This document shows, one piece after another, positions 1 to 39,641 of a stretch of 64,000 bases of DNA. The stretch comes from Thermosulfurimonas sp. F29. GTDB taxonomy: Bacteria > Desulfobacterota > Thermodesulfobacteria > Thermodesulfobacteriales > Thermodesulfobacteriaceae. A program made the position numbers and the translations under genes. The stretch is from positions 496,001-560,000 of the forward strand of contig NZ_JAIFYA010000001.1 of assembly GCF_019688735.1 (NCBI RefSeq), written 5' to 3'. The notes beneath the pieces were generated by a model. That model was not told where the DNA came from. It did not search any database and saw nothing but the letters and a program-made list of their open reading frames with translations. The number at the start of each line of letters is the position of its first letter. The stretch's first letter is position 1.

Positions 1-1737
1 GTGTTTTATGACGAAATTATTTATCTCTTCCTGGCGTTAATCCTGTGGGGAGCCTGGCCCCGTAAGGTCGGGCCCCCGGCTCTCGTGACTGCGTCTATCT
101 TTCTTTTAAAGGATCTCGTGTGGCTTTTGCTGGTTAGACAGAGACTGGCTACCGCTTTGGATGCCCTGGAGTTTGCCGTAAGGCAACGCGCTCTCCTGCG
201 CTGGGCGCTCCTCTTTTTCTTCGTGGATGTGGCGATGCTGGGTCTTCCCTCCCGTCTTCCCCACGAGGTATGGGCCATTTTTCTTTACGGCCAGTATCTC
301 CTCCTCGCCTGGTACATGGCCGGACGCTACGAAAAACGCCAGCACCTCACCGGCCTTTCCCCCGGACGGTACCTCCTCTCGCAGATCCGCTTCTTCTCAC
401 CGGCGGTGTTCCCGTGGGTAGCGGCTTCCCTCGGAATAGAACTCATCCAAAGGTGTGTCCCCGGACTCCCGGATTATTTCCTCTGGACCCTGGGACTTAT
501 CCTTCTGGGTATCTTTTTCCCATATCTTGCGGTTAAACTCTGGCCCACCCGGTCTTTCCCGACCTCGTCCCTCCGCACCGAAATCGAAGCCTACCTTCGT
601 CGGGTAGGAGTTCGCCTGGGGGACATCCGACTCTGGCTCGCCTTTGAGGGCAAGCTTCTTACTGCAGGTGTTCTGGGGGTGCTCCCTCCTTTCCGGTATC
701 TTTTAATCTCTCCGGGTCTCCTGGCCACCCTTAACGAGGAGGAAATTCTCTCGGTGGTAGCCCATGAAGCCGGACATGTCAAACACCGCCATCTATGGTG
801 GCTCCTTTTTTTCCTGCTGGCCTTTCTTTTTCTCCTCTACTGGGTTCTGGAGTCGGCCTGGTTGCTTTTCATCTCCCTTTTTCCCTATCCGAAACTCTTT
901 GTGAGTTCGGATTTTCATCTGCGGGTCTGGCCGGAGATAATTCTGGCTTTAATCCTGGGAGGGGTGGTGATATTTTATTTTCGCTATTTTATTGGCTATT
1001 TTCTTCGCAATTTTGAGCGTCAGGCGGATCTCTTTGCCTTGGAAAGCCTGGGATCGGCCCGGGGGATCATTGCGGCGCTGGAGAAGATAGCGGCTATTTC
1101 CGGTTTACAAGAGGCCCCTAGCTGGCATCATTACAGTCTGGCCGAAAGAATCTCTTTCCTTCACGCGGCCTCGGCTGATCCGCTTCTCGTTCAAAAACAT
1201 CATGTGGCCCTTTCTAGGCGTAAGAGGATCTTTCTCCTCGTTGTTTTTGTCCTCCTGGGCCTCGCGGCACTGGGGGACCACAACTTTCTAAAGGAAAGGG
1301 CTCTCCGAAACATGCTGCGGGGGGTGGAGGCCCGGGCGGAGGGGCAACCCGAGGTTCTGCAGGCGCTCGCGGATTATCTCCTCTCTCAGGGGCTGGAAAA
1401 GGAAGCCATTTCGGTATACGAGAAGGTCCTTACCGGAGATCCCCGGGATCCCTGGGCCTTAAATAACCTGGCGTGGCTGCTTCTTACCGCAAAGAAGCCT
1501 TCTCTGAGGCATCCCCGAAGGGCCCTTGAGCTGGCCCGAGAGGCCGTACGGCTCAAACCCTCCGCGGCCATTCTCGACACCCTGGCCGAGGCCTATTACC
1601 AGAACGGTGATCGAAATCAAGCATGTGCTACCGCCCGCAAAGCCCTCTCCCGGGCCAGAAGGGAGAAAAGTCGCCATCTGAATTATTACTTGAAACGGGA
1701 AAAAGCCTTCTGCCGTCATGCTTCGGCCTCCCTATGA
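1..1737 (+). CDS. M48 family membrane metallopeptidase with C-terminal TPRs
   Basis: Membrane zinc endopeptidase of the M48 (HtpX/Ste24-like) family. The zinc motif HEAGH is at about residues 255-259. A second motif, FERQADLFAL near residue 338, supplies the third metal ligand region. Several hydrophobic segments lie before and after the active site, and a strong membrane segment lies near residues 405-425. The last 140 or so residues are TPR-like (repeated A-x3-Y and LNNLA helices). The family acts in membrane-protein or envelope quality control; the TPR part probably binds partners. The reading frame opens with GTG at the first base of the window, so the true start could lie further upstream. 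It overlaps the next gene by 20 bp, so the two are probably cotranscribed. Confidence 0.85.
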   Translation: MFYDEIIYLFLALILWGAWPRKVGPPALVTASIFLLKDLVWLLLVRQRLATALDALEFAVRQRALLRWALLFFFVDVAMLGLPSRLPHEVWAIFLYGQYLLLAWYMAGRYEKRQHLTGLSPGRYLLSQIRFFSPAVFPWVAASLGIELIQRCVPGLPDYFLWTLGLILLGIFFPYLAVKLWPTRSFPTSSLRTEIEAYLRRVGVRLGDIRLWLAFEGKLLTAGVLGVLPPFRYLLISPGLLATLNEEEILSVVAHEAGHVKHRHLWWLLFFLLAFLFLLYWVLESAWLLFISLFPYPKLFVSSDFHLRVWPEIILALILGGVVIFYFRYFIGYFLRNFERQADLFALESLGSARGIIAALEKIAAISGLQEAPSWHHYSLAERISFLHAASADPLLVQKHHVALSRRKRIFLLVVFVLLGLAALGDHNFLKERALRNMLRGVEARAEGQPEVLQALADYLLSQGLEKEAISVYEKVLTGDPRDPWALNNLAWLLLTAKKPSLRHPRRALELAREAVRLKPSAAILDTLAEAYYQNGDRNQACATARKALSRARREKSRHLNYYLKREKAFCRHASASL

Positions 1738-2524
1738 ACGCTACGAAATCCTTTATCTGTACGCCTTTTCGGGCACTCATCCCGACCTTCGGAATTTCTC
1801 CGACCCGGACTTCATAGGTTGCTGGGTGGAGGAGGACCTCACGGTGCTTTTTTTCCATCGTGAAAAGTCCGGGCTCCCGGAAATGATTGAGAGGAGATTT
1901 GGTCTCATTTTTGAGCTATCGGCCCGGGTTCCCTATCGGGAATGGGGCGAAGGTCGGGACCTTTCTCCTTTTTCTGTGGGGCCTTTTATCTTTGCGCCGG
2001 TCTGGAAAAAGATTCCAGGGGCGCTGATCTATGATCCCGGGGTGGTCTTCGGAAGCGGCTCTCATCCCACCACCCGCCTCATGCTCGAGACCCTGTGGGA
2101 GGTCTGGTCACAGGAAGGCCCCTTTCACCGGATCTATGATCTGGGATGCGGAAGCGGTCTTCTCACCCTGTTTGCTGCCCGTCTGGGTGCCAGGGTCACC
2201 GCGGTGGATCGTAATCCCCTGTGCGTGGAACTTACCCGCCACAATCTGAAGCTGAATGGTCTTGCGGCGGAGGTGATCGAGGGGGATCTCCGGAAGCTTC
2301 TTCCCTTCCAGGGGGGGCTGGTTCTGGCCAATCTATACAAAGGCCTGCTTGCGGAACTCCTGGGACTGCCCTCCTTTCTTAAAGCCGATTATTATATCCT
2401 TTCCGGCTTTAACACCTCCATGGAAGTGGAGCTCCGGGAGATAATCGCCGGAGGAAGGCTCAAAATCATAGATCGAAGGGAAAGGGAGGGTTGGGTGTGT
2501 CTGAGTCTCAAAAAGAAGAAATGA
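1718..2524 (+). CDS. PrmA-like class I SAM-dependent methyltransferase
   Basis: About 268 residues related to ribosomal protein L11 methyltransferase. The stretch DPGVVFGSGSHPTT near residues 105-118 and the SAM motif DLGCGSG near 142-148 are both PrmA hallmarks. The N-terminal L11-recognition domain is shortened and divergent, and a second, more canonical PrmA is encoded at 9174-10028. The substrate may therefore not be L11. The start overlaps the peptidase gene, and the stop overlaps the ATG of coaX (ATGA), indicating translational coupling. The family call is firm; the specific target is unknown. Confidence 0.75.
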   Translation: MLRPPYERYEILYLYAFSGTHPDLRNFSDPDFIGCWVEEDLTVLFFHREKSGLPEMIERRFGLIFELSARVPYREWGEGRDLSPFSVGPFIFAPVWKKIPGALIYDPGVVFGSGSHPTTRLMLETLWEVWSQEGPFHRIYDLGCGSGLLTLFAARLGARVTAVDRNPLCVELTRHNLKLNGLAAEVIEGDLRKLLPFQGGLVLANLYKGLLAELLGLPSFLKADYYILSGFNTSMEVELREIIAGGRLKIIDRREREGWVCLSLKKKK

Positions 2525-3297
2525 TCTTGTGCGTGGATGTGGGAAATACTACCACCGCCTGCGGAATATTCCGCCGGGACGGACTCCTTCTGCGGACCTT
2601 CCGTTTCCGTACGCGCACCGATCTCACCCCGGAAGAGCTTCTCCTTTTTATTCGCGGCTTTCTTGATCTTCTGGAGATCCCCGTGCGCGCTGTAAAGGGT
2701 GTGGCCTATGCCTCGGTAGTACCTCCCCTGGACAGTGTGTGGGAAGCGGTGGTGCGCCGATGGCTGGTCAAGGAATGGCTGGTGGTTTCCGCCGAAAGCA
2801 TCCCTATAACGGTGAAACTCCGTTATCCCTCCGAGGTGGGGGCGGATCGACTGGTAAACGCTTATGCAGCCTGGGTCCGGTGGAAACAGGCGGTTATTGT
2901 GGTGGACTTTGGCACCGCCACCACCTTTGACTGTGTATCCCCGGAGGGGGAGTACCTGGGAGGAGCCATAGCCCCGGGACTCGAAACTGCCGCCGAGTTC
3001 CTCTTCCGGCGTGCAGCCAAGCTTCCCCGCGTGGACCTGAGCCGCCCTCCGGAGGAGATCTTGGGAAGGGACACGGTCTCGGCCATGAAAAGCGGTCTCC
3101 TTTACGGTTTTGTGGGCCTTACCGAGGGTCTGGTGGAGAGACTTTCCCGGGAGATGGCCACCTCTCCCATGGTGGTGGCCACCGGTGGACTATCCCGGAT
3201 CATAGCCCCCCTTTGCCGGGTGATCCGGGAGGTGGTGCCGGAGTTGACCCTGGAGGGACTCTATCTTCTCTATAGGGAGCGAGTGAAAGGTGTTTAA
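2521..3297 (+). CDS. coaX: Type III pantothenate kinase
   Basis: Phosphorylates pantothenate in the first step of coenzyme A synthesis. It belongs to the ASKHA fold: the phosphate-1 motif DVGNTTT lies near the N-terminus, VVDFGTATTFD in the middle, followed by GGAIAPGLE and TGGLSR near the C-terminus. These are the type III signatures, and the 258-residue length is normal. The ATG at 2521 was chosen over an upstream in-frame GTG because the protein then begins MILCVDVGNTTT and the ATG overlaps the stop of the preceding gene. Type III enzymes need a monovalent cation and are not feedback-inhibited by CoA. The panB gene of the same pathway is at 45057. Confidence 0.95.
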   Translation: MILCVDVGNTTTACGIFRRDGLLLRTFRFRTRTDLTPEELLLFIRGFLDLLEIPVRAVKGVAYASVVPPLDSVWEAVVRRWLVKEWLVVSAESIPITVKLRYPSEVGADRLVNAYAAWVRWKQAVIVVDFGTATTFDCVSPEGEYLGGAIAPGLETAAEFLFRRAAKLPRVDLSRPPEEILGRDTVSAMKSGLLYGFVGLTEGLVERLSREMATSPMVVATGGLSRIIAPLCRVIREVVPELTLEGLYLLYRERVKGV

Positions 3298-4147
3298 CCC
3301 CGGTGATCGGGTAATCGTTTTCGCTCCGGCCGGGGCGGTGCGCGAAGCGGATCTGGAAACGGGACTGGATATACTGCGGAAATGGGGGCTTGAACCACGG
3401 GTGAGTGAGACCTGTCGAAGCCGGTATCGCTATCTCGCCGGAGACGACAAGCTGCGGGGAGAGGAACTGCGGAGACTTCTTGAGGAAGAAAGGGATTGCG
3501 TGCTCTGGGCTGCCCGTGGAGGATTCGGTTCGGCCCGGCTTCTTCCCCGTCTAGAGGATCTCTTTCCGGGCCGCAAGTCGCCGATTCTTCTGGGGTTTAG
3601 TGATTTAACCGCGCTTCTCAATTATCTCGTGATCCGGGGCTTTAGAGCCTGGCATGCTCCCACGGTGAGTTTTCTCGGAAAAATGCATCCTGGGGCCCGG
3701 GAGGAACTGCGTCGCCTACTTTTCGGAGAAAAGATCCCCCTCCTTTGCGGAATCGCTCTTCGAGAAGGAACAGTTGAGGGACCTCTTTTCGGTGGAAATC
3801 TGGCCACCCTTTCGGCCCTTGTGGGCACACCATATTTTCCCGAACTCAGAGGGGCCATCCTTTTTCTTGAGGACACGGGGGAGGCTCTCTATCGTCTGGA
3901 TCGCTATCTCACTCACCTGGCCCTGGCCGGAATCTTCCAGAAAATAAAGGGCCTGGTACTGGGGGATCTGGGGCACCCTCTGGAGGCCATCTTCCCCATC
4001 CTGGAGGAGATCCTTCCCTCTCACCTCCCGGTGGCTGCGGGTTTTCCCCTGGGACACTTGCCCGGGACTCAGGCCTTTCCTCTGGGGGAAAGGGCACGCC
4101 TTGAGGTGAGGGGGGGAAGGGCCTTTCTAACTCAGGCGTACGATTAA
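3290..4147 (+). CDS. S66 family LD-carboxypeptidase (LdcA/MccF-like)
   Basis: Serine peptidase of family S66, which trims the terminal D-alanine from murein tetrapeptides during cell-wall recycling; MccF relatives cleave microcin C. The expected nucleophile is in GFSDLT near residue 103, the acidic residue in LEDTGE near 193, and the histidine in GHLPGT near 254, in the order Ser-Glu-His typical of the family. The N-terminal RGGFGS motif is also characteristic. GTG start at 3290, overlapping coaX by 8 bp; last gene of this plus-strand run. No signal peptide, which fits cytoplasmic recycling. S66 membership is clear; the exact substrate is not. Confidence 0.88.
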   Translation: MFNPGDRVIVFAPAGAVREADLETGLDILRKWGLEPRVSETCRSRYRYLAGDDKLRGEELRRLLEEERDCVLWAARGGFGSARLLPRLEDLFPGRKSPILLGFSDLTALLNYLVIRGFRAWHAPTVSFLGKMHPGAREELRRLLFGEKIPLLCGIALREGTVEGPLFGGNLATLSALVGTPYFPELRGAILFLEDTGEALYRLDRYLTHLALAGIFQKIKGLVLGDLGHPLEAIFPILEEILPSHLPVAAGFPLGHLPGTQAFPLGERARLEVRGGRAFLTQAYD

Positions 4148-4501
4148 AGGGATCACATGGAGCTCCTCGTGCACCTCCTCGGTGGGGCCGAGATCCCAGT
4201 CCGCCACCCGGAGTCCGTCGGGAAGGAGATCCTCCAGCGCCTTCACCACCCCGGAGAGATTTAGCGCCGGATGACGCTTGAAAACCTCCGGGAGGCCCCA
4301 GGTCAGGTTGCAGGCCAGACACTGCCCGGGCCGGGCCTTGAGACGAAGCTCTAGACGTACCACCCGGCGTTCCGGGTCAAAATGTCCCAGGCCGAGCTCC
4401 ATGTCGTAAGCCGGCTCTTCTCCGAAATAAAAGGCCTCGAAGAACTCCCTAACCTTTTCCGGAGGGAGAAGAGCGCGCACGCGTAATTCATCTATCATCA
4501 T
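4127..4501 (-). CDS. Conserved hypothetical protein (Desulfobacterota-type small protein)
   Basis: Protein of 124 residues with the pattern FFEAFYFGEEPAYDMELGL and a later RPGQCLACNLTWGLPEVFKRHP segment. To my recollection this resembles a family common in sulfate reducers that databases label, misleadingly, pancreas/duodenum homeobox protein 1. No homeobox is present and no function is known. A CxxC pair (CLAC) could bind metal. The start was set at one of two adjacent ATG codons (4501 or 4498), downstream of a GGGGAGGG ribosome-binding site, rather than at the upstream 4513 start, which would precede that site. It overlaps the S66 gene tail-to-tail by 21 bp. Confidence 0.65.
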   Translation of the reverse strand: MMIDELRVRALLPPEKVREFFEAFYFGEEPAYDMELGLGHFDPERRVVRLELRLKARPGQCLACNLTWGLPEVFKRHPALNLSGVVKALEDLLPDGLRVADWDLGPTEEVHEELHVIPLIVRLS

Positions 4502-4522
4502 CTCCCTCCCCAAAAGTTTGAT

Positions 4523-5956
4523 CTAGTAGGAAGTCACCCTTATGTCCGTGAGAAGTACATACCTTCCGGTCTCAATGTCGGCATACCCGGAACCCAATAT
4601 AAAGTACAGAGCGGAAGGAAGTCGATCAAGGGCCAGGGGATCGGCCCTGTCGGACAAAAGCTTCTTTCCGTCAAAAAAGATGCGTATGGTATCGCCCTTC
4701 TTCTGCAGGGCTACTCGATGAGGCCTTCCCACTATGTCCTGGTCAAGCGGGATGGGCTTGTTCATCCACTTAAAAGAGGTGTCTTGAGCGGTGGCTCCTT
4801 TGGCCAGGTAAAGGTAAAAAGGGGCATCGAACCGTCCCAGGCGCACAGAAGCCTGTCCGTGGGGAACATAGGTTCCACAATAGAAAGTGTACTCAATGGC
4901 CCAGTCTCCGGACCAGCGAAATCTTTGCAAATTTTTATAGAAAACTGTCTCTCCCTTAATCGTGGCCAGCCACTTCTTGCCCTGAAAGGAGACGCACTCC
5001 GCGGTCCCCTTAACTATTCTGATGGAGGAGGGGACCTCCGTGCATCGAGAAAAGTCCTCCTGCCATACCACCTTTTTTCCCGGCTCGAACCGGGCCTCCG
5101 GTCGTACCAGCCCTCCGGTGGGGGCAGGAGCCACCGAGGAGTCCCGGGGGGCCGAAGTCGCCGCCGGACGGGGAGCCGCCGAGGGATTGTTATATCCCTG
5201 GGTGTCCGAACCCCAGCGATAATAATTTTCCGGTACCATCTTGGCGATGGCGTCCACGGCGTTGTAAAGCATCACCCGGATGGCCTTCTCCATGGGGGTG
5301 TTCTTGTAGGCCCCCAGAGCCCCGCCCAGGGCTACGGTCCCCAGAATGGTGCCCATTCCACCGCCCACCTTCCAGGAGGTGGCCTTCCCCTCCACACTGG
5401 TGGCATTTATGACCCGCCCGGTGCGCACATCCACCAACCGGATGTCCGCGGCAATGTACGCTTCTTTCTTGGAGATCTTGGCCCCCCCGATAAGGGGAAT
5501 ATTGAAAGGCACCACTATACCGCCCCCTCCCACTCCCGAGGCGTTGGGCTCGAAGGCGGTGATGGCTCCGATGACCAGAATGTCCGCCCCCTCCATGAGC
5601 CCGGTCTTGGGGCCGGCCCCCTGCCTCACATATCCGGACTGGGCCAGGTTAAGTTCCTCCTGAATGGCCTTCAGTCCCTCTCCCCGTTCGAGCACTATGA
5701 AACGACCGGTTCGGAAGAGGGCCGTGGCCAGCATGTCCGCCAGACCATCTCCTATGGCCCCGCTGCACTTGGCGGCCTTGCACCTGAAACTCGCTACCGC
5801 TATACGGGCCTTGGGCCCCCTATAGGTGATCACCTCCTGTACCGTTGGCCCGGTACTCTCCACGCGAGTCTGAACCCCGGAGGATACACAGGAGGTCAAA
5901 AAAAGAAAAATTCCCAAGCCCAATAAAACCGATACTCTCTTCTGTAAAGCGTCCAT
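4523..5956 (-). CDS. CsgG-family lipoprotein with C-terminal concanavalin-like domain
   Basis: Signal peptide with lipobox LTSC at about residues 20-23, so a lipidated envelope protein. Residues from roughly 45 to 250 match the CsgG/HfaB fold (ARIAVASFRCKAA, LADMLATALF, RFIVLERGE, VDVRTGRVI). CsgG forms the curli secretion pore; relatives sense or assemble at the outer membrane. A Pro/Ala/Ser linker follows, then about 180 residues (WQEDFSRC, WAIEYTFYCG, VALQKKGDTIRIFFDG) resembling a LamG/concanavalin-type beta sandwich. No csgA, csgE or csgF homologue is nearby. ATG at 5956 was chosen because a strong AGGGGGGT site precedes it. Promoter at 5989-6017. Confidence 0.75.
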   Translation of the reverse strand: MDALQKRVSVLLGLGIFLFLTSCVSSGVQTRVESTGPTVQEVITYRGPKARIAVASFRCKAAKCSGAIGDGLADMLATALFRTGRFIVLERGEGLKAIQEELNLAQSGYVRQGAGPKTGLMEGADILVIGAITAFEPNASGVGGGGIVVPFNIPLIGGAKISKKEAYIAADIRLVDVRTGRVINATSVEGKATSWKVGGGMGTILGTVALGGALGAYKNTPMEKAIRVMLYNAVDAIAKMVPENYYRWGSDTQGYNNPSAAPRPAATSAPRDSSVAPAPTGGLVRPEARFEPGKKVVWQEDFSRCTEVPSSIRIVKGTAECVSFQGKKWLATIKGETVFYKNLQRFRWSGDWAIEYTFYCGTYVPHGQASVRLGRFDAPFYLYLAKGATAQDTSFKWMNKPIPLDQDIVGRPHRVALQKKGDTIRIFFDGKKLLSDRADPLALDRLPSALYFILGSGYADIETGRYVLLTDIRVTSY

Positions 5957-29187: not shown

Positions 29188-29252
29188 CTTCCCTTAAAAT
29201 GCTATCTAGATTTGGTATTTTAGACAAGAGCAAAAAAGCTGAGGGGGGACCA

Positions 29253-32200
29253 ATGGATGCCTTTCAGCTCTGTAAAAGCCTTATTTCCGACTACAGTGAA
29301 TATGTTAGCGGTTTTCTGAATATCAGGGACGAACGACTGAGAGATTATGTGGATAGATTTTTGAGCCGTGGTTCTCTCTGGCCCGAGGCGAGAGTTCAGC
29401 TTAATCCTGCTTATGAAAAAGGGGCTACGGTAGAAGATCTGGTCCGCGAAGGCCTTCTTCATCCTGACTGTGCCCAAATTTTAAGAACCAAAGAAGGGAA
29501 ACCTTTTCATCTTTATCGGCACCAGGAAGAAGCCATAATAAAAGCAGCCAAGGGAGAATCCTATGTTCTTACTACCGGAACGGGTTCAGGAAAGAGCCTT
29601 TGTTTTTTTATTCCTATTGTGGATTATGTCCTGAAAAACGACCCTCAAGACAAAAGGGTGAGGGCCATCATTGTTTATCCGATGAACGCCCTAATCAATT
29701 CTCAGCTTGAAGGCTTTAAAAACCTTCTTTCAAATCTACCCGAATGCCCTGTAACCGTAGCCCGCTATACCGGCCAGGAAGATGCTCAAACCAGAGAACG
29801 CCTTCAAAAAAATCCACCCCACATTTTGCTTACCAATTATGTCATGCTGGAACTCATGCTTGCTCGGCATCACGAGCAAGTTTTTGTGGATCAGAATTAT
29901 GCTCGCATTAAATTTTTGGTATTTGACGAACTTCATACCTATACCGGGCGCCAGGGAGCAGATGTCGCCTTATTGATTCGCCGATTGGCGGAAAGAACCG
30001 GAAATCAAGATCTAATTTTAATAGGTACAAGCGCCACCCTGGCCACAGAAGGAGACCGTTTCCATCGCAAAGAAGTAGTGGCCCAGGTAGCCTCAAATTT
30101 CTTCGGAAGAAGGATACCGCCAGAAAATGTAATTGATGAAACTCTGAAAAGAGTCACCTGTGGCCATTTTTCGAAAGAGAGTCTAAGAGAAGCTCTGGCT
30201 TCTCCGCCTCCTTCGGAAGATATTTCTCTGGACGAGTTTTTGAGGCATCCGGTTGCGGCTTGGATTGAGGATACTTTTGGTCTTACGGAAAAAGACGGAT
30301 ATTTAATGCGCAGAGAGCCCATTACCCTTTCCGAAGGCGCGAAAAAGCTGGCCGAAGAAACCGGTGTATCTGAAGGAACGGCCGTTAAGTACCTTCAGCA
30401 CATGTTTAATCTCGGGAGTCGCTTAAAACTTCCCGATGGCACCACAGTTTTCCCTTTCAAACTTCACCAATTTGTGGCGCAGGGTGAAAACATTTTGGCT
30501 ACCTTAGAAAAGCCTTCAACTAGATTTTTTACCGCCGAGATCAAAAATTTTGCTCCCGATGTGGAAGGTCTTAAGCGCCCTCTTTTTCCACTGGTTTTTT
30601 GCCGAGAGTGCGGACAGGAATATTACCAAGTGGTTTGGGATACTCAAGAAAACCAGTTTTTACCTCTGGAAGAAACCCTGGAAGAAGAAGCTGAGGAGAT
30701 TCAAGCCGGTTATTTGGTTATCGAAGAGGAACCGGACACCGTCTGGAACGAAGCTTCCCTTGAGGAACTACCGGATACCTGGAAAACGCCAAAAGGAAGA
30801 ATTAGTAAAAAGTACGAAGATCATGTCCCCCGGAGGGTATGGGTTACTCCCGATGGGAAAATTTCCTTTGAAGAGACCGAAGATTCCGCTCCTGGTTGGT
30901 TTGTGAGATATCCTTTTCTTTTTTGTCTCAATTGTGGAATAGTTTATACCCGCAAGGAAAGAGAATTTAAAAAGTTGGCCCGTTTTTCTTCCGAAGGGAG
31001 GAGTACAGCCACCACACTTCTCAGCGTCTCAACTATAGTCCATCTACGCAAGCAGGGAATTTCACAAGAGGCTTGTAAACTTCTTTCTTTTACTGACAAT
31101 CGGCAAGATGCCTCTCTTCAGGCGGGACATTTTAATGATTTTGTTCAAGTGGCTCTGATAAGGTCTGGCGTTTACCGTGCCCTAGAAGAAGCGCGAGAGC
31201 TCACTCACGAGAACATAGCCTTTGCTGTATATGAAGCCCTCAATCTACCCCAGGAGATGTACGCCAAAGAACCGGCAGAACCAGGAACTCCGGGATTTGA
31301 GCGCAAACGGAAGGCCTTTATCCGGTTGCTTGAATATCGGATTTTAGAGGACCTGAGGCGAGGGTGGCGGGTAGTTCAGCCCAATCTTGAGCAGGTCGGT
31401 TTGCTGAAAATAGAGTATCACGGCCTGAGAGAAATTTGCCATAAAGACAGTCTCTTTCAGGCTCATCCACTTTTGGCTAAGGCTACCCCTGAGAAGCGCT
31501 TCTTTGTGGTGAAGAACTTTCTGGACTTTATGCGGCAGGCCCTAGCCATAGATGCTCATGTTCTTACTCCCGAAGCCCAGGAAAGCCTTCTTAGGGAGGT
31601 GCGCCAAGAAATCAAAGAGCCTTGGAATTTTGCTGACGATGAGATTTTACGGAGAGCTTCGTGGTTTGTGATTGATCCCTATCATGAGAGAAGAGAAAAC
31701 GAATGGAGCCTTTCGGCAAGAAGCAAGCTAGGAAGATTCCTAAGATCACCTGAAACCTGGGACGGACTTTTAACCAAACCGCTTTCGGAAGAGGAGTATC
31801 AGGAGGAGTTTTTACCGGCGTTCGTAGATCTTCTTATTGGCTGTGGATTCGTAAGGAAGAGACCGGACGGAAAAGCCATTCAGGTTCAGGTGGGATCAAT
31901 CGTCTGGCAAAAAGGCACGGGAGAAATTCCGGTCCCGGATCCGATTCGTTCTAAATGGCTCAAAGGGGCCGACATCGACAAACTTCTACGCCGAGCCCAT
32001 CCCTTCTTTGTGAGACTTTATAAAGAACTTGCTTCAGAATTTAAAAACCTTCAGGCTGCCGAACATACTGGACAGATTGGCAAGGAAGTTCGTGAAAAAA
32101 GAGAGAAGCTTTTCAGGAAAGGGGAGGTTCCGGTACTTTATTGTTCCCCTACCATGGAGCTTGGGATTGATATTGCGGATTTAAATGTGGTTCACATGCG

Positions 32201-34367
32201 AAATGTTCCGCCCTCTCCGGCCAATTATGCCCAGCGAAGCGGACGAGCAGGAAGAGGGGGACAGCCTGCGGTAGTCATTACTTATTGTGCAGCTAAAAGT
32301 CCGCATGACCAGTACTTCTTCCATCGTCCAGTAAAGATGATTGCCGGAGCAGTGACGCCACCACGGTTTGATCTTTCAAATGAAGACATGCTTAGAGAAC
32401 ATCTACATGCTATTTGGCTGGCAAAGACTGGACTCAATTTGGGGCATAGTATACGTGAGATACTAGATTTAGAGTTTTCAGGATATCCCCTGCATGAAGA
32501 CATCAAAAAGACCATTTCTGATCCTCGCTACATTGAAGCTGCTTTTGAGGAAGCTAAAAGACTGATTGAAAGAGAAAAAAGACTAAATAATGAAGAAGAA
32601 AAATTCTTCCCCGATGAAAAGTGGATTAAAGAGACTTTGGAAAGGGCTCCCGAATTATTTGATAAGGCCTTTGATAGGTGGCGAACTCTTTACCATCTTG
32701 CTGAAGAGCAGATACGAAAAGCTCAAGATGAGATCTTAAAGCTACTTATGATTAAAGGGAATCGCAAAGAAATGCAGGAAAGGCGCCAAAAAGCAGAGAG
32801 GATGCAAAGGGAGGCTTTAAGACAGATAGAGCTCCTTCTTAATCAAGCTGAAAATACCGAATCAGATTTTTATCCTTATCGTTATCTCGCCTGTGAAGGA
32901 TTTTTGCCGGGTTACAATTTTCCGAGGCTACCCATAAGAGCCTATCTTTCTGTGGGGGAACAGGGAGAATTCATCACAAGACCAAGATTTTTGGCTATTC
33001 GGGAGTTTGCCCCTTTCAATCTGATCTATCATGAGGGACAGATATTTATGGTTGATAGAGTCCAGATGCCGTTAAGCCAAATTCATTCACGCCTTAAAAG
33101 TGTGAGACTATGTAAACAATGTGGGTATATTCATGAAATTCAGGAAATTGATTGTTGTGAAAATTGTGGTGTCTCTTTAAATGCTGAAACCTCAATAACT
33201 ACTGACAGCCTGTTCGATCTTCCAGATGTTGTGGCTATCAAATGCCGTAGAATCACCTGTGATGAGGAAGAGCGGGTAAGACTTGGTTATAAAATAGATA
33301 CCTTTTTCCGTTATTCAGTCGGTAAATCGGGGATTCGAAAAAGAGGCTATAAAGTAATGGTTGGCCGAGAAGAACTTTTTCGAGCTACCTTCGGGCCTTC
33401 GGCTACTCTTTGGCTCGTCAATCAAGGATGGCTCCAAAGTAAAACTCCCCGGGGATTTTTGTTGGACTTCGAGAGCGGGAAATGGCTTAAAGATTCAAAG
33501 GAAAGTGATCTTTCCCCTGAAAGGGTCAAACGTGTTTTACCTTTTACAAAAGATACCAAAAACATTCTACTAATTCAGCCTATCGCACCTGAACATAGAG
33601 AAGACGCCATTCTGGCTTCCTTTCAGGCGGCCATGCTCTCTGCTATAGAAACATATTTTCAACTTGCGGAGGGTGAAATTTCAGCGACTAGACTGGGAGA
33701 AGGAGAACAAAAGGGCATTCTTTTCTGGGAAGCCAGTGAAGGAAGCCTTGGAGTGTTAAGAAGACTTGTAGATGAACCCGACATTTTCCGTAAGTTAGCC
33801 CACTTAGCTTTGGAAATTTGCCATTTTTCTCCTGAAGGAGATGATCTGGAACCAAAAGATTCTGAAGAACGTTGTACCAGAGCGTGCTATCGGTGTCTTC
33901 TTTCTTATCAGAATCAGCCGGATCATTTGATTTTAGACAGGTTTTTGGTTAGGGATTTGCTCTTGAAACTTAGAGAAGCGGATTTGGTAGCCCAAGATTT
34001 TTCTAGTAGAGAAGAACAATACCACTTTCTTTTAAAGCAAATTGATCCTCGTTCTTCCTTGGAGAAACGCTTTTTAGAGTATTTGTACAAAACCGGTAGG
34101 AAGCTTCCCGATGAAGCTCAGAAATTAATTATAGATGAAAATTTAGGTCTTAAAGCCTGTCCTGATTTTTATTACAGAGCTGGCAATGTATGTATTTTCT
34201 GTGATGGCTCAGTTCATGACGAAAAGAGAATTCAGGAAAGGGATTATGAACAGCGAAAATTGTTAGAAGAAGCTGGATACCTGGTGATTTCTATAAAGTA
34301 TGATGAGGATCTGGAAGACCAGATAAACCGGTATCCTAATGTATTTGGTGCATTAGCTCAGACTTAA
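29253..34367 (+). CDS. Large DEAD-box helicase with DUF1998 and nuclease-like C-terminus (DruE / fused DrmA-DrmB-like)
   Basis: Protein of 1704 residues. Walker A TTGTGSGKS near residue 108, DELH near 225, GTSATLA near 258 and motif VI QRSGRAGRGGQ near 993. A DUF1998 zinc module (CTRACYRCLLSYQNQPDH) is near 1540-1560. The last 110 residues (SSLEKRFLEYL, PDFYY, FCDGSVHD, RDYEQRKLLEEAGY) resemble Vsr/DUF559-type endonucleases. DruE of Druantia is of this size; DISARM splits helicase and DUF1998 into DrmA and DrmB. ATG 29253 follows GAGGGGGG. The stop codon lies in an IS end at 34360, so the final residues may not be native. Confidence 0.8.
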   Translation: MDAFQLCKSLISDYSEYVSGFLNIRDERLRDYVDRFLSRGSLWPEARVQLNPAYEKGATVEDLVREGLLHPDCAQILRTKEGKPFHLYRHQEEAIIKAAKGESYVLTTGTGSGKSLCFFIPIVDYVLKNDPQDKRVRAIIVYPMNALINSQLEGFKNLLSNLPECPVTVARYTGQEDAQTRERLQKNPPHILLTNYVMLELMLARHHEQVFVDQNYARIKFLVFDELHTYTGRQGADVALLIRRLAERTGNQDLILIGTSATLATEGDRFHRKEVVAQVASNFFGRRIPPENVIDETLKRVTCGHFSKESLREALASPPPSEDISLDEFLRHPVAAWIEDTFGLTEKDGYLMRREPITLSEGAKKLAEETGVSEGTAVKYLQHMFNLGSRLKLPDGTTVFPFKLHQFVAQGENILATLEKPSTRFFTAEIKNFAPDVEGLKRPLFPLVFCRECGQEYYQVVWDTQENQFLPLEETLEEEAEEIQAGYLVIEEEPDTVWNEASLEELPDTWKTPKGRISKKYEDHVPRRVWVTPDGKISFEETEDSAPGWFVRYPFLFCLNCGIVYTRKEREFKKLARFSSEGRSTATTLLSVSTIVHLRKQGISQEACKLLSFTDNRQDASLQAGHFNDFVQVALIRSGVYRALEEARELTHENIAFAVYEALNLPQEMYAKEPAEPGTPGFERKRKAFIRLLEYRILEDLRRGWRVVQPNLEQVGLLKIEYHGLREICHKDSLFQAHPLLAKATPEKRFFVVKNFLDFMRQALAIDAHVLTPEAQESLLREVRQEIKEPWNFADDEILRRASWFVIDPYHERRENEWSLSARSKLGRFLRSPETWDGLLTKPLSEEEYQEEFLPAFVDLLIGCGFVRKRPDGKAIQVQVGSIVWQKGTGEIPVPDPIRSKWLKGADIDKLLRRAHPFFVRLYKELASEFKNLQAAEHTGQIGKEVREKREKLFRKGEVPVLYCSPTMELGIDIADLNVVHMRNVPPSPANYAQRSGRAGRGGQPAVVITYCAAKSPHDQYFFHRPVKMIAGAVTPPRFDLSNEDMLREHLHAIWLAKTGLNLGHSIREILDLEFSGYPLHEDIKKTISDPRYIEAAFEEAKRLIEREKRLNNEEEKFFPDEKWIKETLERAPELFDKAFDRWRTLYHLAEEQIRKAQDEILKLLMIKGNRKEMQERRQKAERMQREALRQIELLLNQAENTESDFYPYRYLACEGFLPGYNFPRLPIRAYLSVGEQGEFITRPRFLAIREFAPFNLIYHEGQIFMVDRVQMPLSQIHSRLKSVRLCKQCGYIHEIQEIDCCENCGVSLNAETSITTDSLFDLPDVVAIKCRRITCDEEERVRLGYKIDTFFRYSVGKSGIRKRGYKVMVGREELFRATFGPSATLWLVNQGWLQSKTPRGFLLDFESGKWLKDSKESDLSPERVKRVLPFTKDTKNILLIQPIAPEHREDAILASFQAAMLSAIETYFQLAEGEISATRLGEGEQKGILFWEASEGSLGVLRRLVDEPDIFRKLAHLALEICHFSPEGDDLEPKDSEERCTRACYRCLLSYQNQPDHLILDRFLVRDLLLKLREADLVAQDFSSREEQYHFLLKQIDPRSSLEKRFLEYLYKTGRKLPDEAQKLIIDENLGLKACPDFYYRAGNVCIFCDGSVHDEKRIQERDYEQRKLLEEAGYLVISIKYDEDLEDQINRYPNVFGALAQT

Positions 34368-35560
34368 TCTGACAGTGAGGCCTTCCCAAAGGGGGGTGGT
34401 CCGGGCTACCCTCCAGGGAGCTCCACCCAAAACTCAAAACAAGGAGGAGTAGCCATGACCACCCAAGAGAAGCTTATCAAGAACAAGCTAGGTTTGCTAG
34501 AGTTGGCGGCGTACTTGAAAAACGTATCCGAGGCCTGCCGAGTCATGGGCTTCAGCCGGGACACCTTCTACCGGATCAAGAAAGCCTATGAGTAAGGCGG
34601 GATAGAGGCTCTTTACGAGAAGAGCCGCCGGAAACCCAACCTCAAGAACCGGGTTTCGAAGGAGGTAGAGCGGGCGGTAGTGGAGCTGGCCCTGGAGGAT
34701 CCCTCTTTAGGGCAGAAGAGGGTAAGTGATGAACTGAGGAAACGAGGGATATTTGTATCACCGGCAGGGGTAAGGAGCATTTGGTTAAGGCATGGGCTTG
34801 AGCGATTTGAAAAGAGGCTCAAGGCCTTGGAGGAGCGGGTAGCCAGGACGGGGGAGGTTCTTACGGAAAGGCAGCTTCAAGCGCTTGAGAAGGCCAGGGA
34901 GGAGAAGGTAGCCCAGGGGGAGATAGAGACCGAGCACGTGGGCTATCTAGGAGCCCAGGACACTTACTATGTGGGGACCATCAAAGGGGTGGGCCGAATC
35001 TACCAGCAGACCTTTATAGACACCTATTCCAAGGTGGCTTTTGCCAAGCTTTACACCAGCAAGCATCCCATCAATAGTGCGGACTTACTGAACGATCGGG
35101 TGATACCGTTTTTTGAAGAGCACGGGATATCGGTATTGAGGATACTGACGGATCGGGGAACGGAGTTTTGTGGACGTATAGACCGGCACGAGTACGAGCT
35201 CTTTTTGGCCTTAAACGACATAGAGCACACGAAGACCAAGGCCAAGAATCCGCAGACCAACGGGATATGCGAGAGGTTTCATCGGACGATCAGGAGGAGT
35301 TTTACTCGATAGCGTTGAGGAGGAAGCTTTATCGGAGTTTGGAGGAGCTTCAGGAGGACTTGGATTTGTGGATAGAGAGGTACAACCGGCAGAGGCCGCA
35401 TCAGGGGAAGTACTGTGAAGGCAAGACGCCGATGGAGACGTTTTTGGGAAATGTGCCCTTGGCAAAGGAAAAGATGCATTCTAATGTGGAGGCAGGATTT
35501 GGGTTCTGACCGAGCCTGACAGGTGGAGCCTCTGGAGGGGCCAACTGTCAGATCAAGTCT
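34360..35560 (+). mobile_element. IS481-type insertion sequence, degenerate
   Basis: Terminal inverted repeats: left from 34360, AGACTTAATCTGACAGT; right ending at 35560, whose reverse complement is AGACTTGATCTGACAGT (16 of 17 match, then a further GGCC match). The length is 1201 bp. No convincing target duplication. It carries one inactivated transposase gene. Confidence 0.75.
34455..35509 (+). pseudogene. IS481-type transposase, broken by a stop and a frameshift
   Basis: Reads MTTQEKLIKNKLGLLELAAYLKN..., with the N-terminal helix-turn-helix and the rve integrase core (DTYSKVAFAKLYT, ILTDRGTEFCG, NGICERFHRTI, then YNRQRPHQGKYCEGKTPMETF). Codon 47 is TAA (34593-34595) in the middle of an otherwise continuous YE-GGIEALYEKSRRKPN. 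A one-base loss near 35288-35295 shifts HRTI to a different frame, which resumes as EEFYSIALRRKLYRSLEEL. Two separate lesions make it inactive unless recoded. RBS AAGGAGGAG lies before the ATG. Confidence 0.85.
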
Positions 35561-36126: not shown

Positions 36127-36429
36127 ATGCTGGTCGCCAGGCTTGAGGAAATCGAGGGCCGGGTCGGCCCGGGAGGAAAAGTGTATCTCACGCTTGAGGA
36201 GGCGGAGAAGCTCACCTCCATCCCGGCGGAGACCCTGAAAAAGAAGATATACGCGCAGGAGCTTCCTGCCTACAAACCGGGAAAACAGCTTCTCGTAAGG
36301 TGGTCGGACTTAAGAGCCTTCATCGAGAGGCATCCGGTGAACCGGAATGCTTTTACCGAACCGGAGAGGACGCTAACCGGAAGGAGAGCTTCACGGGGGA
36401 GGCCTCCCGTCAGGTATTATCCGAAGTGA
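36127..36429 (+). CDS. Excisionase-like helix-turn-helix protein
   Basis: Protein of 100 residues. VYLTLEEAEKLTSIPAETLKKKIYAQELPAYKPGKQLLVRWSDLRAFIERH is the standard MerR/Xis-type winged-helix pattern used by recombination directionality factors. A basic tail (RRASRGRPPVRYYPK) follows. Together with the tyrosine integrase at 38314 it suggests an int-xis pair for excision at tRNA-Arg. It may equally regulate transcription. Confidence 0.7.
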   Translation: MLVARLEEIEGRVGPGGKVYLTLEEAEKLTSIPAETLKKKIYAQELPAYKPGKQLLVRWSDLRAFIERHPVNRNAFTEPERTLTGRRASRGRPPVRYYPK

Positions 36430-36451: not shown

Positions 36452-38260
36452 CTAAGGGGTAGGGGTACCGGTCTTTATGTGGTATTTAATTCCCTGTTTT
36501 TCACAAAATTCGATCACTCTTTCGCTCATTTTTCGATAAAATTCTTCATATTTGTGATAGGCATTTGAGCTCACGTTATAGTTTAGCTTTCCGAAAATTA
36601 TCCGGTCCACAAAATCAATTTGTTGAAGCAACTTTTCTATCTGTGAACTTTCAGGATCAATATTTGGAGTGGGGTAGGGCTCGATCGAGACCCAGGTTTT
36701 AAAGCCCGCCCTGGCCAGTTTTTTCAGTGACTCGATGCGCATCTTGTATGGAGCGGAATAAGGCTCAAAGTTTTCTTTAAATTTCGAATTAAGAGAAATC
36801 AAAGTAATTCCATATTCATTGTCTTTGGAGAGATCCCTAACTTCCTCTGGGTAATACCCTTTGGTAAGAGTAGTAACTCTGATCCCTTTTTCGTTCAAAA
36901 ACCGGATGATTTTGAGGGTCATATCCACAAAGGTTTGGGCGAGTTTTCCTTCACGGTGGTCGAACATGAAAGGATCGGTCATGAAGGAGAGATGTACGCA
37001 CTCTATCTCGCGCCCATACTTGAGCCATTCCCGATAGAGCAGATCCATAGCATTGAGAACCAGCCTGGGGCGTATCCAATCCTCATAAGAACGCACCCAT
37101 CCGAATCTCCTGGCCATCATGAAGGCGTAGCAGGGGAAACGGCATCCATGCATGCATCCTAGGAAGTGGTTTATGGTCCAGTCGGAATATTCCACCTTCG
37201 TGCGATAAAGAAGCGACTTCCGGTATATCCCTTCTTGTGGAGTAGTGTTGCCGTTATCTGCCTCGACAGAAAAAAGGTTTTTTTTGTAAATCTCCGGGCC
37301 CCAGATGGAAGGATGTTGCCGTTGCTTCATCCTGGCATAAACATCTTTAACGATTTGGGTGATGCTTCCTTTACGAGAGGCAAAGATGAGGTAATAGATT
37401 ACGTCCCTTTTGTGCGGGTAGGGCATGTCGTAAGCTACCACTTTCATTCCCGGAAAGTTTTTTTCTACGAAAAATCTGAGCATTTCGAGGCTGTCTTTGG
37501 GAATAACATTCACATCGGCCCCCATGAACTCTTCGAGAGTCTTTAAGGTTTTGAGTTCCTTGATCGCCACATTTTCTTTATTCTTAACCCTTTCGGCAAA
37601 CCCTCTTACTCTCTGCACCCCTTCCAGGATGAAGTTGAACATTATGTCCTTGCGATTGGGAAGCCCAAGAAGAGTTCTAAGCGTGTCTACTTTTATCTGA
37701 AGTCCGTAAGGATCGATGAAAATAAAAAGAGGGTTTCCCAGGGTTTTATGCTTGTCGGGGATGCTGGCGCAAACTTCATGAATGACCTCGTTGCAGTCCC
37801 CCTGAATGATCTGTATTCGGCAGAGGTCCCTTAGCTCCGGGTATCTTCCGAGAAACTGATGCGTTAAAGTTTGGAGAACACCAGCGTTGCTAGCTCTTTT
37901 CTCCACGAGAATGAGATGGACGCGGGTTCTTTTTTTAAATTTTCCCTGCCGATGAAATTGGGCGAAACAATTAAGGAATATTATCGGAGATCCCGGCCAG
38001 TAGGTGATTTGATCAGAGGTTTTCAGCGAGTATATTCCTCTTCCGGCAAAGAGATCGATGTAATACCAGTCTCGGTTAATCCAATTCTGGTTGTTCCATA
38101 TTTTTAGCCAGATGTCATAATATTGAGCGAGGATTTGCAGTTTGGTTTGGGTGTGGATGCGTCCGGTAAGATCCCATTTTTCATCATAGAGGGAAGCAAG
38201 ATCGATATCACTCCACGAGAGATCGGCCCAATAAGGTCTTGCTTCGGATCTTCCGCTCAT
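36452..38260 (-). CDS. TcmP-like methyltransferase-fold domain fused to three-Cys radical-SAM-like domain
   Basis: Protein of 602 residues. Residues 1-330 look like the three-Cys-motif partner protein TcmP: a SAM-fold glycine loop DLFAGRG (69-75), IIQGDC (151-156) and FIDPYG (181-186). Residues 350-602 contain GCMHGCRFPCYAF, i.e. C369, C373, C377 (CX3CX3C), followed by FMTDPF, VTTLTKG, SIEPYPTP and FGKLNYN, similar to SPL/radical-SAM barrels. TcmP normally has a separate partner; here the two are one chain. Start set at ATG 38260, because a longer frame to 38512 overlaps the integrase gene and has no homology. Cargo of the integrase element; function unknown, perhaps defence. Confidence 0.7.
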   Translation of the reverse strand: MSGRSEARPYWADLSWSDIDLASLYDEKWDLTGRIHTQTKLQILAQYYDIWLKIWNNQNWINRDWYYIDLFAGRGIYSLKTSDQITYWPGSPIIFLNCFAQFHRQGKFKKRTRVHLILVEKRASNAGVLQTLTHQFLGRYPELRDLCRIQIIQGDCNEVIHEVCASIPDKHKTLGNPLFIFIDPYGLQIKVDTLRTLLGLPNRKDIMFNFILEGVQRVRGFAERVKNKENVAIKELKTLKTLEEFMGADVNVIPKDSLEMLRFFVEKNFPGMKVVAYDMPYPHKRDVIYYLIFASRKGSITQIVKDVYARMKQRQHPSIWGPEIYKKNLFSVEADNGNTTPQEGIYRKSLLYRTKVEYSDWTINHFLGCMHGCRFPCYAFMMARRFGWVRSYEDWIRPRLVLNAMDLLYREWLKYGREIECVHLSFMTDPFMFDHREGKLAQTFVDMTLKIIRFLNEKGIRVTTLTKGYYPEEVRDLSKDNEYGITLISLNSKFKENFEPYSAPYKMRIESLKKLARAGFKTWVSIEPYPTPNIDPESSQIEKLLQQIDFVDRIIFGKLNYNVSSNAYHKYEEFYRKMSERVIEFCEKQGIKYHIKTGTPTP

Positions 38261-38313: not shown

Positions 38314-39450
38314 TTACTTCCCCTCCCTCATATACGGCAGGGCGTCCTCGAAGATGGTGGGATTTGCGGGATGGCTGTAGTGTAGCAGCATGTCCACGGA
38401 GGAATGGCCGGTGCGTGCCATGGCCTCGACCGGAGAGGCTCCCGCCAGGATCTGGAGATGTGTGGCGTAGGTGTGTCTGGCGTCGTGGAAGCGGACGCCC
38501 GAAAGTCCGCACCTGCGGAATACTCTTGCGGCGGCCGAGGTTATGGAGTCGTGGTGGATGGGAGGAAGTATTCTTCCCTTCGGGATTTCACCTCTTTCGA
38601 GCAATTTTTCCTTCAGTCTCACGAGTTCACGATAGAGTCTTTCCCCCAGGCCCACGAACCTGGGTTTACCTGTTTTGGTTTTCTTTACGAAGACAAGTCG
38701 TCTTTCCCAGTCGATCCATTCCCACTGGAGGGAAAGTATTTCCGACCTTCTCAGTCCGCATCCGAAGGCAAAAAGAAAGATCAGATACATCCATCCGTAA
38801 AGGAGTCTGGATTTCCTGGCTTCGGCGAGGACCATTTCCACCTCCTGAGGGGAGAGCACCCGGGGCTGGAAGGGTTTGTGGTTTTTCAACGGTTTGACGG
38901 CGGAGAAGGGATTGCTCGGAAGGAGACCGAGGGATACGGCTCTTTCTGCGATCCTTTTGAGATCTCTCAGGTGTTTGTTTACGGTATTCGGGGAGTAGCC
39001 TTTCTCGAGAAGAACTCTTTTAAGGATTTCGGCGTCTGAGGGTTTTAGGGAGGCAAGGGGTGTAGAGAGCCCCAGGATACGGAGAATGTTGCGGGATCTT
39101 ATTCCCCTGGCCTGACGTTCTCCCCGGGATAGATGTTTGCTTTCGGCGAGGTAATCCGAGACGGCCTCCTTCAGGGTGTAGCCCGGAAGCCCGGTATCGA
39201 ACACGGACATAAGGGCCTGGAGATCCGGTCTTGAGAGAAGCCCCGCGCCCTGCCACTGTTTCACTTCTTCGGGGGTGTAGTTCGCAAATCTGGTCATTTC
39301 CTCGAGCATTTCGGCTCTGGCAAGAAGGGCTCTGGCTTCCTTTTTGGTGTGGCAGAGACGGGAGCGTTCAACCTTTCTTCCGTCGGGGTAGGTGATCTTA
39401 TACCGGACCCGGAAGCGACGCTTATAGGGGTGGCGGGAGAGGGTGGCCAT
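38314..39450 (-). CDS. Tyrosine recombinase/integrase
   Basis: Protein of 378 residues. An N-terminal arm-binding beta domain, a SAM-like core-binding domain (residues 90-190) and a catalytic domain. The catalytic set is complete: R in GLRRSE (~233), K in TKTGK (~262), HDARH (~321), H in GHSS (~344) and Y in LHYSH (~359). The gene ends the minus-strand unit close to tRNA-Arg, whose 3' end faces it, the usual placement for a tRNA-targeting integrase. Confidence 0.9.
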   Translation of the reverse strand: MATLSRHPYKRRFRVRYKITYPDGRKVERSRLCHTKKEARALLARAEMLEEMTRFANYTPEEVKQWQGAGLLSRPDLQALMSVFDTGLPGYTLKEAVSDYLAESKHLSRGERQARGIRSRNILRILGLSTPLASLKPSDAEILKRVLLEKGYSPNTVNKHLRDLKRIAERAVSLGLLPSNPFSAVKPLKNHKPFQPRVLSPQEVEMVLAEARKSRLLYGWMYLIFLFAFGCGLRRSEILSLQWEWIDWERRLVFVKKTKTGKPRFVGLGERLYRELVRLKEKLLERGEIPKGRILPPIHHDSITSAAARVFRRCGLSGVRFHDARHTYATHLQILAGASPVEAMARTGHSSVDMLLHYSHPANPTIFEDALPYMREGK

Positions 39451-39567
39451 GGGCCGGACCTCCTTTTACCGTATTTTTACCGTGTGATAGCATAAAACGA
39501 CCCGGAACGACGCAGATCGGTCCGGAAAACGGAGGTCCGGGAGTGTTGAAATTACGGAAATTTGTAG

Positions 39568-39641
39568 AGGGCGCGGCGGGATTCGAACCCACGACCTCTG
39601 GCTCCGGAGGCCAACGCTCTATCCAACTGAGCTACGCGCCC
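39568..39641 (-). tRNA. tRNA-Arg (anticodon CCG)
   Basis: Minus-strand cloverleaf: acceptor GGGCGCG/CGCGCCC, D stem GCTC/GAGC, anticodon stem TTGGC/GCCAG around loop CTCCGGA, T arm GTGGG-TTCGAAT-CCCGC. The discriminator position is U and CCA is not encoded, unlike tRNA-Asn in this window. Likely the attachment site of the adjacent integrase. Confidence 0.93.

Follow-up and report, generated by a model that had tools for sequence, protein, structure and literature searches.

TcmP proteins and their three-cysteine partners are widespread and automatically named. The TcmP family is defined in NCBIfam (TIGR04474) and already has candidate defence status in PADLOC, where two candidate systems, PDC-M30 and PDC-M41, combine an A component, TcmP, with a B component, the three-cysteine protein. 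In the open literature we found TcmP in passing mentions only, and no experiments on any TcmP pair. In S. meliloti a TcmP gene adjoins the phage-defence gene hna, as listed in a published table (PMC12445080). A second point of comparison is spore photoproduct lyase (SPL), where C98 has Y97 on one side and Y99 on the other and the indispensable H-atom donor is C141 (PMC3742179). The fourth Cys that SPL requires is C141 in the B. subtilis enzyme.

The window analysed here is a stretch of 64,000 nucleotides from Thermosulfurimonas sp. F29, in which a TcmP and a three-cysteine domain are encoded as one chain (Table 1). Such a fusion had been proposed in the first-pass annotation, and profile searches bear it out: a single open reading frame contains both domains, and each half scores above a profile cut-off. 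The N-terminal half matches TIGR04474 with 130.3 bits (E 1.2e-37, cut-off 53) over model positions 2–261 of 263, corresponding to residues 120–394 of a longer frame of 686 aa that opens with a GTG at 38512. The C-terminal half matches PF04055 (Radical_SAM) with 32.6 bits against a cut-off of 29.5. The longer frame was rejected: over its first ~70 codons it overlaps the integrase gene and reads that DNA in a different frame; in the sister genomes these codons match integrase DNA only. The best start of the fusion is therefore the ATG at 38260. A profile search of the genome found the fusion gene as its sole TcmP.

Table 1. Coordinates of the features in the window and in three related loci.
Feature	Sequence	Coordinates	Strand	Remarks
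DEAD-box helicase	window	29199-34367	+	1722 aa, DUF559-like nuclease end; best PADLOC match DruE (340 bits)
Degraded IS481-type transposase	window	34680-35509	+	split across frames; between helicase and excisionase-like gene
Excisionase-like HTH_17 protein	window	36127..36429	+	TIGR01764 33.6 bits, cut-off 28.8; convergent with fusion gene
Fused TcmP-radical SAM gene	window	36452..38260	-	602 aa, ATG 38260 to stop 36452
Radical-SAM half, about residues 345-602	window	36455..37228	-	SPL-like barrel, from PF04055 and SPL Z
CX3CX3C motif, residues 369-377 (CMHGCRFPC)	window	37130..37156	-	C369, C373, C377
TcmP half, about residues 1-338	window	37247..38260	-	class I methyltransferase fold, RlmJ/DUF519/Trm1-like
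Tyrosine recombinase (integrase)	window	38314..39450	-	PF00589 E 3.8e-20; directly upstream of fusion gene, same strand
tRNA-Arg (CCG)	window	39567..39641	-	beside integrase
Integrase-excisionase slot	L157 (sister genome)	1224-2724		empty
Integrase-excisionase slot	L156 (sister genome)	3728-5693		MazF-like gene (by eye)
Island	L154	5522-10573		Eco57I-like methyltransferase (by eye), TcmP-SPL fusion, nucleotidyltransferase, DarT, macro-domain gene

To survey fused and split relatives, contigs were scanned with the radical-SAM half. Of the 422 relatives obtained, the best 80 were analysed, as were 29 viral loci and four others. This set is weighted towards the window protein, and counts within it are not population frequencies. 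Twelve intact fusions were present (the window protein, L003, L025, L026, L027, L028, L031, L032, L034, L035, L036 and L085). L024, L029 and L050 are three more, each either broken, cut or with an internal deletion. One full-length fusion with 51–52% identity to the window protein comes from another genus of the same family, and ten further intact fusions lie elsewhere. In most relatives the genes are separate but close: 81 of the 113 loci have a TcmP gene at most 300 nt upstream on the same strand, and the split pairs show a median gap of 16 nt (24 of 83 overlap). No adjacent TcmP was found in 17 of the 113 relatives, several of which lie at contig edges. Plasmid and phage records gave weak or partial matches only, except for one split pair (L022) and a partial second pair (L023). 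The long branch of the window protein (0.64–0.7) could have indicated an accidental fusion or a sequencing error without biological meaning. However, its frame is intact, the motifs of both halves are conserved and the 11 other intact fusions are spread over bacterial phyla and archaea; this reading is thus refuted, and we give it next to no credence. The fusion in the window exceeds chance.

Two trees were calculated for these relatives. In the partner tree the fused genes cluster in a clade of 24 (SH-aLRT 97), with five changes between fused and split labels as compared with 14.2 in shuffles; in the TcmP tree they fall in a 12-row set with an SH-aLRT of 99. The fusions come in two architectures. 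Archaeal fusions retain a winged helix (wHTH) between the halves, and bacterial fusions, including the window protein with its TcmP half, are without it. The GMT-wHTH profile PF22560 scores over its cut-off in the archaeal fusion L025 and below it in L085; it is also matched in L038. Perhaps there were two fusion events, or one fusion followed by domain loss. Two observations concern the surroundings of relatives at large. A phage terminase small subunit-like gene, recognized by eye, lies downstream of the radical-SAM gene of the split pair in L087, L105 and L108, from which we conclude that prophages carry split pairs. The gene preceding a lone radical-SAM relative (L051, 2046-2696) has, by eye, a His-Gly/Cys arrangement like that of caspase-type peptidases, and no Pfam match.

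A sequence search among solved structures returned no relative of the window protein, and we therefore compared folds. The AlphaFold2 model, built on a 60-row alignment, has a mean pLDDT of 90.6, and its only poorly ordered stretch is the linker at residues 335–341; at a pTM of 0.72 it does not fix the relative orientation of the domains, and hence a shared active site. With Foldseek and VIA-align, the TcmP half is closest to RlmJ and DUF519 (2oo3), with Z about 15, and to Trm1, with Z 13.9; the overall fold is common to all of them at an identity of about 15%. The two motifs noted at first pass, DLFAGRG (motif I) and FIDPYG (motif IV, core IDPYG), are located in this SAM-fold domain at residues 69–75 and around residue 183, respectively. 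Motif IV is DPYG in the window protein and DPTG in most bacterial fusions. RlmJ, an rRNA m6A methyltransferase, carries DPPY as its catalytic motif IV, which is missing from the window TcmP half, so that the fold alone is common to the two. The DPxG form of TcmP resembles that of Trm1. An enzyme that modifies tRNA or rRNA, for instance to offset phage-encoded RNA cleavage through methylation plus radical chemistry on one nucleotide, would fit the proximity to RlmJ and Trm1, the Trm1-like motif IV and the RlmN-like radical methylases that appear further down the list of structural matches. Nevertheless, the genes linked in the genomes are those of DNA methyltransferases and helicases, and the wHTH of split TcmP suggests DNA; we thus regard an RNA substrate of this kind as quite unlikely. 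Separately, the split TcmP of five loci (L063, L084, L090, L101 and L110) display DCM[CS]NSG at motif I and DP[YF]xA at motif IV. Because DCMCNSG replaces DxFAGxG in some split TcmP, methyl transfer is possibly not universal, and in some lineages SAM use may, judging from these motifs, be lost or altered although the CX3CX3C partner is kept.

In the model, the C-terminal half forms a barrel around the three cysteines, the fold that characterizes the radical SAM superfamily. Its best match is SPL (Z 19.7, rmsd 3.0 over 238 residues), followed by the next radical SAM family at Z 15.6; the top matches include SPL, PFL-AE, NifB and viperin. When the archaeal fusion L025 was modelled as well, the folds of both halves were reproduced (SPL Z 17.2, RlmJ Z 16.6). 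At the level of profiles, the half scores 14.7 bits with PF07505 (DUF5131, cut-off 28.9) and 13.5 bits with PF20903 (SPL, cut-off 27), which rules out direct membership of either. The fused partner belongs to a third, SPL-like family, distinct from the DUF5131-type partners and from those with canonical CX3CX2C.

The radical SAM superfamily contains spacings other than CX3CX2C, so CX3CX3C is non-canonical but compatible with membership. The stretch GCMHGCRFPCYA places C369, C373 and C377 exactly where the first-pass annotation had put them, and the spacing, described there as different from the canonical one, is kept in 112 of 113 relatives. In all 112 it has the form C-x-H-G-C-x-[YF]-P-C-Y, with His-Gly and Pro; in the lone exception Trp replaces the first Cys. 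When relatives were retrieved by patterns that did not specify the cysteine spacing, CX3CX3C was present in 40 of 40. Compared with SplB-like paralogues in genomes of the same family, which have CX3CX2C with C-x-Y-C-Y, one Pro is inserted before the third Cys, and the residue before the insertion is Tyr or Phe among the relatives. The three cluster cysteines are the only effectively invariant ones, with C586 near-invariant. The nearest candidate for a fourth Cys is column 425 (Cys in 96, Ser in 16 including the window protein), and none is strictly invariant. Y378, which follows C377, is invariant. Together with the Tyr or Phe before the insertion and the absence of any evident fixed fourth Cys, this points to an SPL-like scaffold whose chemistry differs and whose cluster is probably held by CX3CX3C. 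The only mention of CX3CX3C in radical SAM enzymes that we found in the open literature is one line on NifB in a review that elsewhere assigns NifB the canonical motif (PMC9692996).

These features bear on a possible repair function. A mobile-element-borne enzyme that repairs a DNA or RNA base lesion by SPL-like radical chemistry, with the methyltransferase-like half recognizing the damage, would agree with SPL as the nearest fold, with Y378 next to C377 as Y99 is next to C98 in SPL (PMC3742179), and with one TcmP relative whose fused domain scores over the PF20903 cut-off. Yet the window half itself stays far below that cut-off, no strictly conserved counterpart to the fourth Cys required in SPL is evident, and linkage is to restriction-modification rather than repair genes, which leaves repair distinctly improbable.

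TcmP combines with several kinds of partner. In an even sample of the phylum (297 genomes), TcmP scored over the cut-off in 44 genomes, with a long, fused frame in four; the CX3CX3C domain occurred in five and was fused in three. Twenty TcmP loci from this sample were inspected with 1.5-kb flanks, and all 20 had a three-cysteine protein nearby, of the DUF5131 type (CX6CX2C) in most and with canonical CX3CX2C in four. Thus, the earlier statement that TcmP is the gene partner of a separate three-cysteine protein holds as regards adjacency in the split relatives, and has to be amended in that there are several partner families and no single one. A different fusion was detected in L154, where TcmP is joined to a domain with CX3CX2C that is over the SPL cut-off (54.8 bits, PF20903); close relatives of this C-terminal half are unfused. 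The L154 locus reads as a compact defence island. Distances between TcmP proteins and between their partners correlate only moderately (r 0.40, 0 of 1000 permutations), a pattern suggesting that partners are swapped while a pairing of this kind stays obligatory.

The genes beside the fusions were then analysed. ResIII, Eco57I, N6_Mtase, SNF2 and PLD are the dominating domains, and most intact fusions have a methyltransferase gene of type IIG or type III, or a helicase gene, nearby. In L155 the order is a PLD-SNF2 helicase, an Eco57I methyltransferase (Pfam) and the fusion; an Eco57I-type gene is located upstream of the fusion in L026, L028, L036 and L025, a type III Mod-like gene upstream in L031 and a ResIII helicase downstream in L032. 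Overall, type III Mod-like genes occur in 14 loci, with 12 of 16 copies at the nearest position; a further type of neighbour, the Eco57I-type methyltransferase, is present in 12. Mitsuokella multacida DSM 20544 (L090) has the split pair in a Mod-Res-TcmP-rSAM operon. Since fused and unfused relatives are often found among restriction-modification genes, the pair is probably a bacterial defence enzyme acting on nucleic acids. DNA methyltransferase neighbours are present in only about a quarter of the relatives, however, and many split pairs adjoin unrelated or housekeeping genes, so that the pair may have a function other than defence. Recurring ORFs of 180–250 aa upstream of split TcmP raised the suspicion of a conserved third gene, for which clustering gave no support. 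In L029 (297-7745), the fusion gene has kept its radical-SAM half but lost the TcmP core to a deletion; upstream of it are genes for an Eco57I methyltransferase, a protein with a Piwi domain and, by eye, a SIR2-like protein.

Among the PADLOC models, PDC-M30A matches the window protein with E 1.5e-19 (A component, TcmP-like), and PDC-M41A is also matched by the TcmP half; the B models gave no match for the window protein. Weak matches to B models were obtained with the partner half of the L003 fusion (PDC-M41B E 3.3e-6, M30B E 2e-5) and in L022 (E 2e-3).

In the window, the fusion gene belongs to a small integrated element, in which it occupies the interval between the integrase and excisionase-like genes, and the adjacent tRNA-Arg (CCG) is the probable integration target. 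The same leuC/leuD neighbourhood is found beside the integrase in L158. As the corresponding interval of the sister genomes is empty in one and differently filled in another, it is an exchangeable cargo slot. The GC content of the fusion gene is 44.4%, as compared with 55.5% for the integrase and 57.4% for the excisionase gene, and the fusion looks like recently acquired cargo. We did not find a second 20-nt copy of the tRNA 3′ end or a convincing direct repeat within 20–39.7 kb of the window; the far end of the element is therefore not placed. The nearby DEAD-box helicase gene has 44.2% GC and is possibly another defence gene beside the element.

The MazF-like gene in the same slot of a sister genome, the defence-type neighbours, the location of one fusion (L154) beside DarT and the occurrence of intact, degenerate and absent states among relatives are all compatible with an offensive effector, whose radical SAM half would damage phage DNA or cellular RNA in abortive infection while TcmP provides recognition or marks self. 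But the window protein contains neither a nuclease domain nor that of a known toxin, there is no consistent linkage to an immunity gene, and the SPL fold is associated with repair and specific H-abstraction rather than broad damage. An effector of this type therefore seems unlikely to us.

Taken together, it is well supported that the gene encodes a single-chain TcmP/three-cysteine pair, with a methyltransferase domain and an SPL-fold radical SAM domain, and that it was acquired as cargo between integrase and excisionase of an element beside tRNA-Arg. The first-pass annotation had taken the fusion as strong evidence of a joint complex; that the halves belong together stands, and what the complex does is not revealed by the fusion. 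A nucleic-acid substrate is inferred from the RlmJ, Trm1 and SPL folds, the wHTH of the relatives and the DNA-methyltransferase neighbours. Our preferred reading, which we consider about evenly poised between right and wrong, is that the fused enzyme modifies nucleic acid with two SAM sites and has a candidate defence role like that of PDC-M30/M41, its chemistry and part in phage defence being put forward provisionally. Both halves would bind SAM and act on one nucleic-acid target: the TcmP half would recognize the substrate and may N-methylate a base, and in most split homologues and archaeal fusions the winged helix would add DNA binding. The radical SAM half is predicted to cleave a second SAM at a [4Fe-4S] cluster, and the resulting 5′-deoxyadenosyl radical would attack the base or sugar at a C-H bond. 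Working alongside type IIG or type III restriction-modification as an accessory, the enzyme would most likely make a covalent modification that serves self/non-self discrimination or is directed against invading DNA. A more specific form, in which a distinct Pro-expanded CX3CX3C subfamily and a class I methyltransferase, joined in a single chain, install a two-step (methyl plus radical) DNA hypermodification for self/non-self discrimination by defence systems of the restriction-modification type, is tentative and on the doubtful side.

This analysis adds a fusion that recurs, a CX3CX3C subfamily expanded by one Pro, a second kind of fusion (TcmP-SPL) and a cargo slot between integrase and xis. 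The same methyltransferase-like protein pairs with at least three families of the radical-SAM type and is fused to members of two. The natural fusion fixes the pairing and stoichiometry of TcmP and its partner in one soluble chain of about 600 aa, whose host is probably thermophilic, and its conserved CX3CX3C is predicted to be an unusual motif for a radical-SAM cluster. Should nucleic acid be what the pair modifies, radical chemistry would be added to the restriction-modification toolkit.

Compared with known systems, the N-terminal half is a clear member of the TIGR04474 family. A typical TcmP is the product of a separate gene, often with a C-terminal extension of ~105 aa (GMT-wHTH where tested), whereas the window fusion lacks this extension and has the partner joined in frame. 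DUF5131 (PF07505), the usual partner, takes the same position beside TcmP and has a three-cysteine motif followed by Tyr; it differs in its CX6CX2C spacing, and the window half is under its cut-off. SPL (PF20903/SplB-like) is the best fold match and has the arrangement C-X3-C-x-[YF]-(P)-C-Y with the Tyr after the third Cys kept, but the Pro insertion that creates CX3CX3C, the PF20903 score below cut-off and the lack of a strictly conserved fourth Cys set the window half apart. Finally, the two-gene order of PDC-M30 and PDC-M41 equals the domain order of the fusion; these candidate systems consist of separate genes, whereas the version in the window is fused, and the B models match weakly in L003 and L022 and not at all in the window protein.
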